44,252 nt of DNA from an uncultured Acidobacteriia bacterium (GTDB lineage Bacteria; Acidobacteriota; Terriglobia; Bryobacterales; Bryobacteraceae), in NCBI GenBank assembly GCA_903882645.1, contig CAIRXZ010000110.1, positions 1 to 44,252 of the forward strand, in the 5' to 3' direction. Each line of letters opens with the position of its first letter. The stretch's first letter is position 1. Positions 17,289-44,252 of this stretch are shown here, in pieces. The position numbers and the translations under genes are program-made. The notes beneath the pieces are model-generated. The model searched no databases. It was given only the letters and a program-made list of their open reading frames with translations, and was not told the DNA's origin.

Positions 17289-17313
17289 GGCGGAATAAGG
17301 GAGGTAAATATCT

Positions 17314-17339
17314 CAAAATACGACGGCCGCGGCCGATAT
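17314..17339 (+). promoter_or_regulatory. Weak sigma-28-like promoter upstream of fliK
   Basis: CAAAATAC (17314-17321), ten bases, then GCCGATAT (17332-17339), matching seven of eight bases of the sigma-28 -10 GCCGATAA. The -35 is poor. GCCGATAT also occurs inside unrelated genes in this window, so the match alone is weak; its position before fliK is the argument. The region to 17480 otherwise holds no gene. Confidence 0.3.
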
Positions 17340-17480: not shown

Positions 17481-19265
17481 GTGGCCGATCTTGCCGCTCA
17501 GCTCGCCTTGCCCCGCGACTTCGGATGGCGCCAGCCATCCAGCGTCGCCGCGCCGTCCGCCACGGAGAAGGGCGCCGCCGCGGAGACGGCCACGGGAACC
17601 GCGGCCGTAAGGGCCGCGCGCTTCCGGGCGTTGTTCAGGCCGCTGGCCGAAGAGGAGCGGGACGCTGCTAGGAAGGGATCTCCGAAGGACGAAGCGCGGA
17701 CTCTTCCCGCATCCGGAGACGCGCCGCCGCCATTGAACGCGCAACCGCCCGCGCCAGCGGCGGCGCCGCCCGCTCCGGTCTCCTTGGAACCGGACTTCAC
17801 CTCCCAGACGGTCGTTTCCGCCGATTTGCAGCCCGCGCCGGACGGATCGGAAGCGGCGAGCGCCAGCTTGAACGATGCGTGGCAGCCGTTGCGGGAAGCA
17901 GGGGCGCGGTCCGCCTGGGGGGCGGTTGCGGCGGGAACGGCGCAGCCAGAGGCTCCGCCCCCTTTGAACCCCGATTCCGCGGGGCAGTTGCGGACTTCCG
18001 GCGTTGGCGCGAGCGCTTCGGGCGGGAACGATCCGTTGACCTCGTGGCGCGGACCCGCGCAAGAGCCCGCCGCGCAGGATCGTCCTGCAGCGGCGGCCGC
18101 GCCTGCCGGGTTGGCCAGTTCGGCCCCGGATTCCGCTGGCCAGCCGGTCGCTTCCGGCGTCGCGGAAACGCGCGCGACAGGTTCACTGCCCCCGCCGGAG
18201 CCTCGAAAGCAGCCGCTTGAGACGTCCCTGGCCGCGTTGTTCCCGGCGGCGCTTTCCGCGCCGGCCGCAACCGCCGCCCCGCGCCGGATCGAGGAACTCG
18301 GACCGCCCGCCGCGGAAGTCTCTCCGGCTGCGGCCGGGCGCGTCTCGGGAGTGGGGGAAGGCTTCACTACGCCACCTTCTCCCTCCGGGCGCGAAGACGG
18401 GACTGGCGCGCCGGCGGCGCGGGGCGAGCTGGCGTTCGCCGGACGGCTGATTCAGGCGTCCTGGGCATCTTCCCAGGCGGCCGCGCCCGCGTCCTCTCAG
18501 GGGCGCGGCGGAAACGCTGCCGGTTCGAACGGCGAGCGTCCCGCGCGGCCCGCCGGTCCGGCGGAGACGGCCGGCGGGGCGGCCGACTCGCCAGCCGGGA
18601 CGGCCGCGGGAGATCGCGCGGGGAATCCGGAGGGCGGGACGGGCGGCTCGTCGGCTTCCAAGCCGCCTTCCGGCGGTGAAACGGAACGCGCGCCGGCGGA
18701 GCGGATCCACGAGCCGGCGTCTGCGTCCAGGCCGCAGGCGGCGGAGCCGCCTGGCGGCGCGGCCGTTCCGGTCGCCGACTCCAGCCCCCGCCAGGATGCG
18801 CGCCGCTCCGAGGCCTCCGGCGGCGCGCCCGCGCAGCCGCTTGCCGCGAGCGCCGGGCGAGCGACGGAAACGGCGGCCCCCGGTCCGGCGCGCGACATCA
18901 CGCTCTCTCTGGACAATGGGCTCCAGCGGGTCGCGGTCCACCTGCAGGAGCGGGGCGGGGAGGTGCGCGTCGCGGTGCGAACCCCGGACCCGGCGCTGGC
19001 GGGCGATCTGCGCCGGGCCCTGCCGTCGCTCACCGCAAAGCTGGAGCAGACCGGCTTCCGGACGGAAACCTGGCACTCGGAAGCCGCGCCGCGCCGCTCG
19101 GCGGAAGCCGCCGCGCGGGGGGCTTCGGAAGACCCGGCCGGCCAGAGCCGCCAGGACGGGCGGGAGCGGCGCGAGGGCCAGCCGCAGCCCCGCGAGAACC
19201 AACAACGGCCCGATCGAAAAAAGGAAAGGAAGGATTTCGCATGGTTTATGTCGTCTCTCGGTTAA
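17481..19265 (+). CDS. fliK: FliK, flagellar hook-length control protein
   Basis: Secreted ruler that sets hook length and triggers the FlhB export switch. The 594-residue product is mostly a low-complexity chain of Ala, Pro, Gly, Glu and Arg, as expected for FliK rulers. A compact C-terminal domain follows near residues 470-540: ITLSLDNGLQRVAVHLQERG, GEVRVAVRTPDPALAGDLRR and LPSLTAKLEQTGFRTETW. GTG 17481 is the first start after an in-frame stop near 17427, and no ribosome binding site is evident, so the true start could be later. FlgD and FlgE genes follow, the standard hook operon order. Confidence 0.85.
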   Translation: MADLAAQLALPRDFGWRQPSSVAAPSATEKGAAAETATGTAAVRAARFRALFRPLAEEERDAARKGSPKDEARTLPASGDAPPPLNAQPPAPAAAPPAPVSLEPDFTSQTVVSADLQPAPDGSEAASASLNDAWQPLREAGARSAWGAVAAGTAQPEAPPPLNPDSAGQLRTSGVGASASGGNDPLTSWRGPAQEPAAQDRPAAAAAPAGLASSAPDSAGQPVASGVAETRATGSLPPPEPRKQPLETSLAALFPAALSAPAATAAPRRIEELGPPAAEVSPAAAGRVSGVGEGFTTPPSPSGREDGTGAPAARGELAFAGRLIQASWASSQAAAPASSQGRGGNAAGSNGERPARPAGPAETAGGAADSPAGTAAGDRAGNPEGGTGGSSASKPPSGGETERAPAERIHEPASASRPQAAEPPGGAAVPVADSSPRQDARRSEASGGAPAQPLAASAGRATETAAPGPARDITLSLDNGLQRVAVHLQERGGEVRVAVRTPDPALAGDLRRALPSLTAKLEQTGFRTETWHSEAAPRRSAEAAARGASEDPAGQSRQDGRERREGQPQPRENQQRPDRKKERKDFAWFMSSLG

Positions 19266-27641: not shown

Positions 27642-28397
27642 ATGTATGCGTATGCGGCGTCTGAATCGATAAACGGCGATGAGCGGGAGCGCCTCATCCT
27701 GGAGCATCTCCCGCAAGTCCGGCTGATCGCGCGGCGCATCCAGGAGCGCCTGCCCGACAACGTGGCGCTGGAGGACCTGATCTCGAGCGGCGTGATCGGC
27801 CTCATTTCCGCGATCGACCACTTCGACCCCGCCCACAACGTCAAGCTGAAGACGTACGCGGAGTACAAGATTCGCGGGGCCATCCTCGACAGCCTGCGCG
27901 GGCTGGACTGGGCTCCCCGGCAGAAACGGCGCCGGGCGAAACAGATCGAGGCGGCCATCGCCCAGGCGGAGCAACTGCATCAGAGGGCTCCGACGGAAGA
28001 GGAAGTCGCCGCGCACCTGAGGATCTCGATTGACGAATACCACGAGTGGCTGGTCGAAGTCCGCGGACTGAACGTGGCCAGTCTCGATCACACCCATGGG
28101 TCCCCCGGGAAGGACCTGTTGCACTACATCGCGTCCGGCGGCGAGGACCTTCCCTCGGTCCTTCTGGAAAAGTCGGAACTGGAACGGGTCCTGGCGGCGG
28201 GAATCGACGGCATCCCGGAAATCGAACGCACGGTTCTTGGCTTGTACTACCGCGAGGAGTTGACCTTGCGCGAGATTGCGTCGGTCATCGGGCTGCATGA
28301 ATCGCGGGTTTCCCAATTGAAGTCGCAGGCCATCTTGAGGCTGCGCGCGCACCTGGCCGAGCGTTGGCCGGCGTCACGCGGAATGGTGAGGGTATGA
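27642..28397 (+). CDS. fliA: FliA, sigma-28 RNA polymerase sigma factor
   Basis: Alternative sigma factor for late flagellar and chemotaxis genes. The 251-residue product has region 2 (ALEDLISSGVIGLISAIDHF, KLKTYAEYKIRGAILDSLRG, LDWAPRQKRRRAKQIE), region 3 (APTEEEVAAHLRIS) and region 4 (IPEIERTVLGLYYREELTLR, EIASVIGLHESRVSQLKSQA). Full length. It overlaps the next gene by four bases. The anti-sigma factor FlgM is not found in the window. A matching sigma-28 promoter is seen at 43660-43687. Confidence 0.96.
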   Translation: MYAYAASESINGDERERLILEHLPQVRLIARRIQERLPDNVALEDLISSGVIGLISAIDHFDPAHNVKLKTYAEYKIRGAILDSLRGLDWAPRQKRRRAKQIEAAIAQAEQLHQRAPTEEEVAAHLRISIDEYHEWLVEVRGLNVASLDHTHGSPGKDLLHYIASGGEDLPSVLLEKSELERVLAAGIDGIPEIERTVLGLYYREELTLREIASVIGLHESRVSQLKSQAILRLRAHLAERWPASRGMVRV

Positions 28398-29266
28398 ACG
28401 CCGGCGAAACGGGCGCCTCGCGCCATCTGGCGGATGCCGGGAACGCGCGGCGTTTGGTCGACGGCTGGGCCGAGAGCCTGGCTCAGGTTTTCGAATCCAT
28501 GGCCGGCGAAAGGCCCGAGGTCCAGTGGCAGCCGGCGGCCGGGCCGTTGCCTTCGGCGGAAGGAACGGAACACGAGTTCCTGTGGTGGGAACAGCCCTTT
28601 CAAGCCGGCGCCGGCGTGACGGTTTGGGTGGCGGCTGCGCGCCCGGCCTGGGAGTATGCCGGCGCCATGACCCTACAGGCCGCGGGGCTTATAAAAGTCG
28701 ATCCTGCGGAAGCCAGGAACACCTGGCTTGAGATCCTGGGGCAGTCGCTGTCGGCCATGGCGCGAGCCACGGGAGCGATTGTGGGCCGGGAGGTTTCCTG
28801 CGGGACCGGCGCCGAGCGCCCGCCTGGACCGCAGGTGAGCGATTTCGTCTCGGTCGCGCTGAAATTCGCCGGGGCTTCTCCAGATCCGCTGGTTCTGGCG
28901 CTCAGCCCCAACCTCCTGGACTTGATTTCCGGGCCTTTCGAGAAACCGGCCGAGCCCGTCGAGGCCGCCGATGAGGCGCCCCAGGCGGCCGTTCCGAGCG
29001 CGCGCTCCCGCACCATGGACCTGCTGCTCGAAATCGAGCTGCCGGTCAGCATTTCCTTCGGCAGGATCCAAATCCCGATGAAAGACGTGCTGAAACTGAC
29101 GACTGGATCCATCGTCGAACTCGACCGCGACGTGAACGAACCCGTCGAGGTGATGGTCAACCATTGTCTGATCGCGCGCGGCGAGGTGGTGGTGGTGGAA
29201 GGAAACTACGCCGTGCGCATCCAGCAGATCGCTAGCCGCCAGGACCGGCTGCGGAGCGTCCGATGA
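28394..29266 (+). CDS. fliN: FliN-type switch protein with long N-terminal domain
   Basis: A 290-residue protein whose C-terminus is a SpoA (FliN) domain: LLEIELPVSISFGRIQIPMK, DVLKLTTGSIVELDRDVNEP and VEVMVNHCLIARGEVVVVEG. The N-terminal 200 residues are not recognised; they contain WLEILGQSLSAMARATGAIV, vaguely like the helical signature of FliY/CheC phosphatases, but a clear catalytic motif is not seen. Such an architecture may combine FliN and FliM- or FliY-like roles. ATG 28394 overlaps the fliA stop; the next gene overlaps by four bases. Confidence 0.82.
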   Translation: MNAGETGASRHLADAGNARRLVDGWAESLAQVFESMAGERPEVQWQPAAGPLPSAEGTEHEFLWWEQPFQAGAGVTVWVAAARPAWEYAGAMTLQAAGLIKVDPAEARNTWLEILGQSLSAMARATGAIVGREVSCGTGAERPPGPQVSDFVSVALKFAGASPDPLVLALSPNLLDLISGPFEKPAEPVEAADEAPQAAVPSARSRTMDLLLEIELPVSISFGRIQIPMKDVLKLTTGSIVELDRDVNEPVEVMVNHCLIARGEVVVVEGNYAVRIQQIASRQDRLRSVR

Positions 29267-41965: not shown

Positions 41966-43426
41966 TCAGTCCGCCGGACGGGCGCCGGCGGCTTCCTCGA
42001 ATACCGAGGTGAAGAAATCGCGCGCGGCCGGCGCGCTGCCGACGTGCAGGGTATTCGCTCCCTCGTCCACGAAGCCCAGGTAGCCGGCCCAACCCAGGTC
42101 GTCCAGTACGAACCGCAAACATTCCATCTCGCTGGGTGGGAGATCCGAAGCGTCGATATCGAAAACCTGCCCCGAGACGTGCGACAGCGCTTCGCGCTCG
42201 CTCAACTGGCGCGCATAGTCCTCGGGCTCGACCAGCGAGACGACTTCGAGCGGCCGGAACCGGTCCCTCCCTTGGTTGAGCTGGTCGAACAGCCGCCGGG
42301 TTTCAAAGGCGACGTAAACGAGCGCGCCGATGGCGACCGGGGCGCCTTTCTCACGATCCTCCAGATCCAAGGGGGAACTCGGCGGGATATTCAGGGAGTA
42401 GCCGAAATACTCCGGCCGGTCGAACGCCTTCACCAGCAGCTTTGCGCCCAGGACAGACCGGATATCGTCGCCGGTGTGGAACACAAGGTCGCTGCGCGTC
42501 AACCAGACCGTAAGACGATGCGGAGCGCGCCCGGGATTGAACTCGCTCTTGTATTGCTGCGCGAGGGAAGCGAATTCCCGCGGGTCGCGCCGGTAGAGAG
42601 CCAGCAACTGTTGGGCGCGCATCGCGCGGAACCAATATGTGGGCGACCAATCGCGCTGCATCTCACGCTGGACGGTCTCATAAATCTCGCGGTTCCAAAC
42701 CGGGCTCGCCGAGAAAAACATGCGCGCCACGGTGGCCTGGTCCTTGGGGATGCCCCGCGCGGCGCGCGTCAGATCCAGCAAATGGGCCACGCAGCCCTGG
42801 CCGCAGTGATAGGCGAAGACAGCCCAGTCGCGCCCGCCGAACTTCCGCTCCATTCCAGCCAGGTAGACCGCGGCGGCGGGGATGGCGCGGGCGGGGTTCA
42901 GGCGGTCGTCCCGGACCGTCACGGTGTAGGGTTCTTTTCGGGTGACCGTCTTATACTTCGGCGTCTTGCTCTTGCTCCTGACCTGGACCCGCTGGCGGGT
43001 CACGCGATAGCGCGTGGCGCGGGTCACCTTCAGTCCCATTTCGCGCGCAGTGGCTTCGGAGACCTGCATGATGCCCTTGGGACCCGACGGGCTCTCCGCC
43101 TTGGGGTCGCCCCAGCTCTCCAGGTAGGCGACGGCTTCGAGAGTTGCCTGCGGAAATCCGCTGCGTTTGGCCGCGGAACGGAACAGCGGCTGGAGCTTGG
43201 AATCGGCAGTCACGCGCCGCGCCCCCGCCACGGCCTCCGGCTCGCGCAGGATGGCGAATGTCTGGGTCTGAATCATCAGCGCGGTGCGCGCCTCGAGGGT
43301 CTCCTCCGGCATCTCGTCGCGCGCGGCGCCGATCCCCGCCGCCCGATGCGTGGGAACGAAGTACTCCCGGGAAGCGGGTTGACCAAACAGCGCAAAGCCC
43401 AGAAAAAGGAGAACTGAGGATCTCAT
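41966..43426 (-). CDS. SLT-type lytic transglycosylase with basic insert
   Basis: A predicted exported peptidoglycan lytic transglycosylase, 486 residues. N-terminus MRSSVLLFLGFALFGQPA is a signal peptide. The SLT domain has the catalytic Glu at about 103 in AVAYLESWGDPKAESPSGPK, GIMQVSEATAREMGL, then PARAIPAAAVYLAGMERKFG and VFAYHCGQG. Between these two blocks a segment of about 40 residues (RATRYRVTRQRVQVRSKSKT, PKYKTVTRKEPYTVTVRDD), rich in basic and Thr/Val residues, is inserted. The C-terminal 270 residues are unassigned. ATG 43426 has only a weak ribosome site. The 5' side faces a large hairpin repeat. Confidence 0.82.
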   Translation of the reverse strand: MRSSVLLFLGFALFGQPASREYFVPTHRAAGIGAARDEMPEETLEARTALMIQTQTFAILREPEAVAGARRVTADSKLQPLFRSAAKRSGFPQATLEAVAYLESWGDPKAESPSGPKGIMQVSEATAREMGLKVTRATRYRVTRQRVQVRSKSKTPKYKTVTRKEPYTVTVRDDRLNPARAIPAAAVYLAGMERKFGGRDWAVFAYHCGQGCVAHLLDLTRAARGIPKDQATVARMFFSASPVWNREIYETVQREMQRDWSPTYWFRAMRAQQLLALYRRDPREFASLAQQYKSEFNPGRAPHRLTVWLTRSDLVFHTGDDIRSVLGAKLLVKAFDRPEYFGYSLNIPPSSPLDLEDREKGAPVAIGALVYVAFETRRLFDQLNQGRDRFRPLEVVSLVEPEDYARQLSEREALSHVSGQVFDIDASDLPPSEMECLRFVLDDLGWAGYLGFVDEGANTLHVGSAPAARDFFTSVFEEAAGARPAD

Positions 43427-43482
43427 CCCGTCATCGACCAGTGTAATCCGCACGCGGCGCCTGAACTGTGGCTGGCGCCTTT

Positions 43483-43588
43483 GTGGAGCGAGCCCGCGGC
43501 TTGCCATGCCGCCATTCCTGGCGGCATCCTCCCGGCTGGCAGATGCCCGCGGGAAAGCGGGCATGGCAGGCCGGGAGGCCCACTCCAC
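43483..43588. repeat. Large multi-stem inverted repeat
   Basis: Outer arms start GTGGAGCGAGCCCGCGGC (43483) and end CCCACTCCAC; they pair at about 25 of 32 positions. Inside are two further stems, GCCGCC-ATTCCT-GGCGGC and ATGCCCGC-GGGAAA-GCGGGCAT. The RNA or DNA would fold into a three-stem structure. It lies between the divergent transglycosylase gene and the gene at 43698 and looks like a dispersed repeat. Confidence 0.65.
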
Positions 43589-43659
43589 GGGAGCGGAAAA
43601 GAAGCCTGCTGAAAGCTCAACGCCCGAGAGGCGGTGGGAGTGGACCTGGAAGCCGGCGT

Positions 43660-43687
43660 TAAAGGAAAGCTCCCTTCCGGCCGATAA
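43660..43687 (+). promoter_or_regulatory. Sigma-28 (FliA) promoter
   Basis: TAAAGGAA (43660-43667), 12 bases, then GCCGATAA (43680-43687), a perfect match to the sigma-28 -10; the -35 matches TAAAG. The spacer is one base longer than the usual 11. Transcription would begin near 43694, four bases before the next ATG. Confidence 0.6.
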
Positions 43688-43697
43688 GAGTACTGCC

Positions 43698-44033
43698 ATG
43701 GTTATCAGCTCAATCGCCGGCGAGGCGGTCTTCACAGCGGGCTGGATCGCGGTTGCGGCCGCGGCGGCGTACTCCCGCTACAAGAAAGCGCTCGAACGGG
43801 CGGAAAGCTCGCGCGAGGCCGGCGTCTCCGGCGCGACGCGGGAATATCACAACGGCCTGTATCTCGGGCGTTCCGAGATTCTGGCGCCGGGGAGCGAGCC
43901 AAAGGCGAAGGACCTTCCGGCGCCCGGCGGCATTGTCCCGGAAACGGCTACCGCCAGCCTGATTTCCCTGGCGCAGGCGCTCGATGGCGCGGCGCGGAAG
44001 GCTCAGCCGGTAAAGGAGAAGGTGCGCGCCTGA
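43698..44033 (+). CDS. Unknown small membrane protein, putative FliA target
   Basis: An 111-residue protein starting at ATG 43698 behind the sigma-28-like promoter. It begins with a hydrophobic segment, MVISSIAGEAVFTAGWIAVA followed by AAAAYSRYKKALERAESSRE, suggesting one membrane anchor and a basic/amphipathic helix, then a Gly/Pro-rich tail (SEILAPGSEPKAKDLPAPGG) and a final helix (SLISLAQALDGAARKAQPVK). I do not recognise a family. The promoter suggests co-regulation with late flagellar genes. A longer reading from 43506 would translate the hairpin repeat and is unlikely. It might be a flagellar or chemotaxis accessory protein. Confidence 0.6.
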   Translation: MVISSIAGEAVFTAGWIAVAAAAAYSRYKKALERAESSREAGVSGATREYHNGLYLGRSEILAPGSEPKAKDLPAPGGIVPETATASLISLAQALDGAARKAQPVKEKVRA

Positions 44034-44098
44034 GGCTCGGCGGGCGCGCGGCGAGTGCTTACCCGAACTGGGGATACATCATCTATTGGCGGTCCGTT

Positions 44099-44118
44099 GG
44101 CAGGCGAAAGCGCCTGCC
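44099..44118. terminator. Hairpin between convergent genes
   Basis: Perfect stem GGCAGGCG-AAAG-CGCCTGCC, located between the forward gene ending at 44033 and the leftward gene ending at 44139. There is no strong T-run, though TTTCTACATTTTCT follows a few bases later. Confidence 0.5.
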
Positions 44119-44138
44119 CCTGGAGTTTCTACATTTTC

Positions 44139-44252
44139 TCAGGCAGCGGCACTGCGGACGAGTTGCTTTTCCGTGATTTTGACCTCGAACTCCGTCAGAA
44201 GTTCGGGGTGTTCCGCCATCTCCTTGCGTAACAGAGTGACCAGATCCAGGCA
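44139..44252 (-). CDS. C-terminal end of an unidentified gene (partial)
   Basis: The leftward frame enters at the window edge and stops at 44139-44141. The visible 37 residues read LDLVTLLRKEMAEHPELLTE, then FEVKITEKQLVRSAAA. They are helical and charged; no family is recognised. It lies downstream of a hairpin shared with the convergent gene. The rest lies outside the window. Confidence 0.5.
   Translation of the reverse strand, partial: CLDLVTLLRKEMAEHPELLTEFEVKITEKQLVRSAAA

Follow-up and report, generated by a model that had tools for sequence, protein, structure and literature searches.

The window analysed here is an entire contig of 44,252 bp (C110 of genome G000) from a 5.27-Mb assembly of an uncultured soil bacterium of the family Bryobacteraceae. 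On its forward strand, a sigma-28-type -35 element (TAAAG, 43660..43664) is followed by a 15-nt spacer (43665..43679), the -10 element GCCGATAA (43680..43687) and a 10-nt gap (43688..43697), after which comes an ATG-initiated reading frame of 111 codons (43698..44033) encoding an orphan protein with one predicted membrane segment, hereafter P0001. A sequence-only reading of the window had described a perfect -10 element, a TAAAG -35 element and an ATG 10 bases downstream; these were confirmed by direct read of the sequence, as was a 111-residue frame (ATG at 43698, end at 44033). The divergent neighbour, on the reverse strand, encodes an SLT-domain lytic transglycosylase (41966..43423; PF01464, E 8.5e-18), included as context only, and is divergent from the P0001 gene in both genomes that carry the latter (G000 and its congener G002). 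Between the two genes lies an imperfect 32-nt inverted repeat (43497-43573), which is absent from the G002 intergenic region. A search of 43400-44252 gave no terminator-like site.

The gene of the presumed sigma factor, fliA (27642..28397, forward strand), matches TIGR02479 with 233.3 bits (cut-off 189.6) and NF005413 with 225.9 bits (cut-off 201), in agreement with the earlier statement that FliA is encoded in the window. The distance given there to the main flagellar cluster, 14 kb, corresponds to 14.4 kb between the P0001 gene and the nearest flagellar gene identified in the window, a FliN/FliY-like gene at 28364-29266.

The membrane segment of P0001 was predicted by hydropathy at residues 6-24 (43713..43769, forward strand). 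The 19-residue mean peaks at residue 6 in both genomes, with 1.61 (a modest value) in G000 and 1.87 in G002, and past residue 40 no value rises above 1.02; the single N-terminal segment of the earlier description is thus found by hydropathy and kept in the ortholog. The residues RYKK directly follow the segment and suggest that the N terminus lies outside and the C terminus inside. Stretches kept in the ortholog are AGWIAV, YSRYKKALE and REYH-GLY-GR. Searches against Pfam and NCBIfam gave no family for P0001, consistent with the claim that it belongs to none that is recognised, and PDB sequences were likewise without a match (best solved-structure E 0.56). An AlphaFold model was poor (mean pLDDT 56.3), with a long N-terminal helix at residues 4-44 and a helix at residues 81-102. 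In size, and in combining an N-terminal segment with a predicted cytoplasmic tail, P0001 resembles FliO-like small single-pass flagellar membrane proteins; it differs from them, in a comparison made through family libraries only, in having no Pfam or NCBIfam match, and its gene lies outside the flagellar cluster of the window.

The promoter match was compared with shuffled, reversed and simulated controls. The window contains a single TAAAN{13,18}GCCGATAA, a pattern that turns up at all in 1 of 100 shuffles, whereas GCCGATAA alone is not unusual (two in the window; two or more in 35 of 100 shuffles). Across the whole G000 genome, TAAA-N14..16-GCCGATAA occurs three times against one in a reversed control, and the stricter T[AC]AAG-N14/15-GCCGATAAG six times against none. 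Of 30 flagellin upstream regions, taken one per genome, 23 were used to construct a score matrix (the other seven held no acceptable site), and it took in the flagellin promoter of G000 and nothing from the P0001 locus. With this matrix the P0001 site scored 23.1, the top value in the window, compared with 20.3 for the best of 60 simulated windows. The second-best site (TCAAAATACGACGGCCGCGGCCGATAT, 17313-17339, score 21.6) likewise beats all 60 simulations and lies upstream of an open reading frame at 17481 whose FliK match is weak and below the cut-off.

A slightly different scan of the G000 genome returned nine matches, against one in the control. Five of them belong to flagellin, flgM, P0001, a 39-residue frame and a protein whose length is 299 residues or more and whose GGDEF match is weak (E 0.0099) and under the cut-off. 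The remaining four were judged by eye to be intragenic or undecided. The 39-residue frame lies on contig C218 (locus L004, 1501-1696), where a Shine-Dalgarno-like GGAGG and then a GTG start come after TAAAG-N15-GCCGATAAG. Its product is a tiny membrane protein, for which the genus yielded no convincing homolog (best other E 0.6).

The spacing of the P0001 site is native to the lineage. TAAAG-N15-GCCGATAAG precedes flgM of G000 and flbD of the congener G001, as well as two flagellin genes in other genera, and an N15 spacer is also found before a PilZ-like gene of G002 (named by eye). Flagellin genes of all four genomes of the genus have an N14 spacer, and the 23 flagellin promoters of the clade divide into 14 with N14, five with N15 and four with N13. 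The G000 flgM was assigned from FlgM matches that stay under the curated cut-offs in NCBIfam (E 1.1e-5) as well as in Pfam (E 0.0014). No such site was found within one mismatch per element before flbD of G000 or G003, and no flbD gene was found in G002. The sequence-only reading had called the spacer one base over consensus: the length of 15 nt is correct, and the implied abnormality does not hold for this lineage, since flgM and flbD share it. P0001 therefore has the TAAAG...GCCGATAA layout in common with the late FliA promoters of flgM, flagellin and flbD, and differs from these genes in having no known flagellar function and in how far the ATG lies behind the -10 element, at 10 nt for P0001 compared with 27 for flgM (G000), 17 for flbD (G001) and 48 and 50 for flagellin (G000 and G001). 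According to passages of a study of E. coli (PMC4183435), one FliA motif listed for that species is TAAAG-N14-GTCGATAA, one base shorter between the elements than the P0001 site. The same passages place FliA motifs within genes and at genes beyond the classic flagellar operons, and the non-classic targets they name differ from P0001.

The only ortholog of P0001 that we found is encoded on a contig of 16,565 bp in the congener G002 and is 57% identical in alignment. All 13 promoter bases are the same in the two genomes (5/5 in the -35 element and 8/8 in the -10 element), as are 11 of the 15 spacer bases and 5 of the 10 gap bases, the gap being 10 nt long in both. Identity is 78/99 over the first coding bases and 16/60 over the 60 nt upstream of the site. 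Conservation of the spacer exceeds that of the genus flagellin promoters, the latter as judged by eye, a point against the promoter reading. The alignment of the two genes contains indels of 9 and 3 nt, dN is 0.37 and dS 0.68 over 101 codons, and differences fall 28, 30 and 42 times on the three codon positions, a weak codon signal; the dN/dS figures fit a constrained yet fast-changing protein. The earlier expectation that the promoter is kept upstream of orthologs is borne out by the one ortholog found (n = 1). Being the top site of the window, natively spaced and kept in that sole ortholog, the sigma-28-type promoter proposed from the letters stands, and it is very probably real, as is the gene.

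Presence of the P0001 gene was determined across 61 genomes and was found in two, G000 and G002, out of four genomes of the genus. A profile search of 237 genomes of the family gave four matches at E 0.01, two of which were accepted as orthologs; among 396 genomes drawn evenly from the phylum, the single match was G000 itself. The two other family matches were taken as chance or composition, namely G187 (E 0.0036), in which the match sits in a TsaB-like frame (by eye), and G254 (E 0.0094). The same verdict applies to matches in the small set of fetched loci, L049 of G254 (E 3.4e-5, bias 20.9, best domain E 0.021) and L048 of G187 (E 2.1e-4), beyond which nothing in that set fell below E 3. The neighbouring transglycosylase is present at E 1e-60 in 10 of the 61 genomes, and the P0001 gene and its site lie beside it only in G000 and G002; one of the ten, G025, has only 225 nt of upstream sequence and carries no weight either way.

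Flagellin is encoded by 39 of the 61 genomes. The P0001 gene occurs in 2 of these 39 and in none of the 22 flagellin-negative genomes, and both carriers have flagellin and FliA. Because 37 flagellin-positive genomes are without it, P0001 is at most a lineage-specific accessory, and its presence in two of four genus genomes with no other convincing match means that it is no general flagellar part. The profile search of relatives called for in the sequence-only reading has thus been carried out, with two orthologs as its yield; it produced neither an ortholog that had lost the motif nor a spread of orthologs through genomes without flagella. The distribution of P0001 neither supports nor refutes a flagellar role.

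Given the usual distance from a -10 element to the transcription start, a gap of 10 nt would make for a nearly leaderless mRNA, and the bases before the ATG of P0001 resemble a Shine-Dalgarno sequence weakly at best. We surveyed 59 sites of the form TAAAG-N15-GCCGATAAG in Bryobacteraceae genera other than that of G000, chosen among the matches listed. At 18 of these 59 sites, an ATG 6-11 nt downstream opens a frame of 50 codons or more. Control bins of equal width, 28 in number and placed 30-195 nt downstream, averaged 2.3 such sites and never exceeded 7. This excess of near ATGs makes a nearly leaderless P0001 transcript plausible. At eight of the 18 loci (L109, L129, L133, L135, L137, L140, L155 and L156) the reading frame meets a stop no more than 12 nt upstream, so those frames can hardly begin further upstream. 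For L109 and L129, among the eight, another start is equally likely or better; L129 is a flagellin locus whose gene start lies 95 nt downstream, so its near ATG is probably no gene start. Homologous loci were counted separately (for example L102/L128, L133/L135 and L155/L156) and 10 of the 59 sites come from G075, so that independent events are fewer than the counts. With these qualifications, sigma-28-type transcripts in Bryobacteraceae may often be leaderless. The titles and abstract openings returned by a literature search contained no mention of the P0001 gene or of leaderless FliA transcripts in Acidobacteriota. L155 (62-679, G143) and L156 (290-913, G007) encode proteins of 206 and 208 residues that are alike by eye, each with an N-terminal hydrophobic segment, an ATG 9 nt behind TAAAG-N15-GCCGATAAG and the in-frame stop just upstream; neither matched a family over the cut-off.

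Two readings deny P0001 a promoter, a gene or both. The conserved block might encode the N terminus of a longer protein, with the likeness to a promoter fortuitous: the frame is open upstream in both genomes, the block reads LKES-S/L-LPADK in frame upstream of the ATG with 9 of 10 residues alike, and G002 has an ATG 22 codons upstream of the aligned one. In G000, however, no in-frame ATG, GTG or TTG lies closer upstream than the ATG at 43563, within the inverted repeat that G002 lacks, and the low identity in the 60 nt upstream of the site is against a continued coding region. Read as protein, moreover, TAAAG sits on a leucine codon, TTA in G000 and CTA in G002, and these make up 2 and 4 of 420 leucine codons in eight genes of the window, a rarity that argues for constraint on the DNA at TAAAG. 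We regard a longer protein as improbable. Still less probable is a chance match in front of a frame that is spurious or otherwise transcribed. Open frames come cheaply in GC-rich DNA, and P0001 combines the lack of a family with a weak codon signal; against this, promoter, distance, start and protein are all kept in the congener with indels of 9 and 3 nt, the six strict sites of the genome face none in the reversed control, and no sigma-70-like site was found in 43400-44252.

A different doubt concerns the sigma factor, since the promoter could be real and be read mainly by a second FliA/WhiG protein, with P0001 part of a non-flagellar programme. G000 encodes two proteins over the FliA/WhiG cut-off, the window FliA and one on contig C67 (222.5 bits), each with a counterpart in all three congeners, and the C67 protein and its counterparts form a separate group; G002 and G003 each have a third. 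With two or three such factors per genus genome, control by FliA is likely rather than proven. The C67 gene (L166, 5130-5894) has neighbours on its contig that do not look flagellar by eye. What lies behind sites of this type was assessed by a Pfam scan of 59 downstream proteins from 55 loci (54 from other genera and one from G000), for which 25 of 43 families were listed. These include HD (6), HDOD (3), FlgM (3), DUF4351 (3), flagellin (2), response regulator (2), two-component propeller (2), FlbD (1), CheX (1) and GGDEF (1), and also acyltransferase, methyltransferase, GntR and outer-membrane efflux families. The sites therefore mark flagellar, chemotaxis and signalling genes, yet not exclusively, and several precede genes without a flagellar name, which speaks for the second factor. 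On the other side, TAAAG-N15-GCCGATAAG stands before flgM of G000, flbD of G001 and the two flagellins of other genera, which are classic FliA targets; the shared motif favours FliA, while the promoter alone cannot separate the sigma factors. On balance we consider reading mainly by the second factor unlikely, if less so than the two possibilities above, and infer that FliA is the likely sigma factor of P0001.

The reading that we prefer, with a probability of roughly 60%, is that a working FliA-type promoter yields an mRNA almost without a leader, from which an inner-membrane protein of 111 residues is made, and that this protein is an accessory of the motile state, recent and specific to its lineage, in a single genus of Bryobacteraceae. 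The switch by which FlgM export releases FliA is established knowledge. By this scheme, once the hook is complete and FlgM has been exported, FliA-RNA polymerase would become active at the P0001 promoter and would start a few bases 5' of the ATG, giving a short, nearly leaderless transcript. Its product would sit in the inner membrane through one N-terminal helix with a cytoplasmic tail, and the tail would probably act on a partner in the motor, the chemotaxis system or the envelope. Because one relative keeps both promoter and gene, P0001 is probably expressed in motile cells. P0001 is thus probably an orphan gene that belongs to a known regulon; a flagellar function is possible, and the proposal of a late flagellar or chemotaxis component is compatible with the sequence data and goes no further than that. 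If the preferred reading is true, P0001 would be a tangible case of the flagellar regulon having captured an orphan gene. More tentatively, and with somewhat less than even odds, a large part of the sigma-28 regulon of Bryobacteraceae may be nearly leaderless, with the AUG 6-11 nt past GCCGATAA, and may repeatedly have recruited new short or N-terminally membrane-anchored proteins, P0001 being one young addition to the flagellar programme.

The promoter set gives the FliA-type form in Bryobacteraceae as TMAAG-N14/15-GCCGATAA, often right before a start codon, and this form can be used for mapping the regulon of the motile state in a large soil family, most of whose members are uncultured. G075 carries 15 strict sigma-28-type sites, the next highest count among the matches listed being 8, and the proteins behind three of its sites (L117, L123 and L124) resemble one another by eye.
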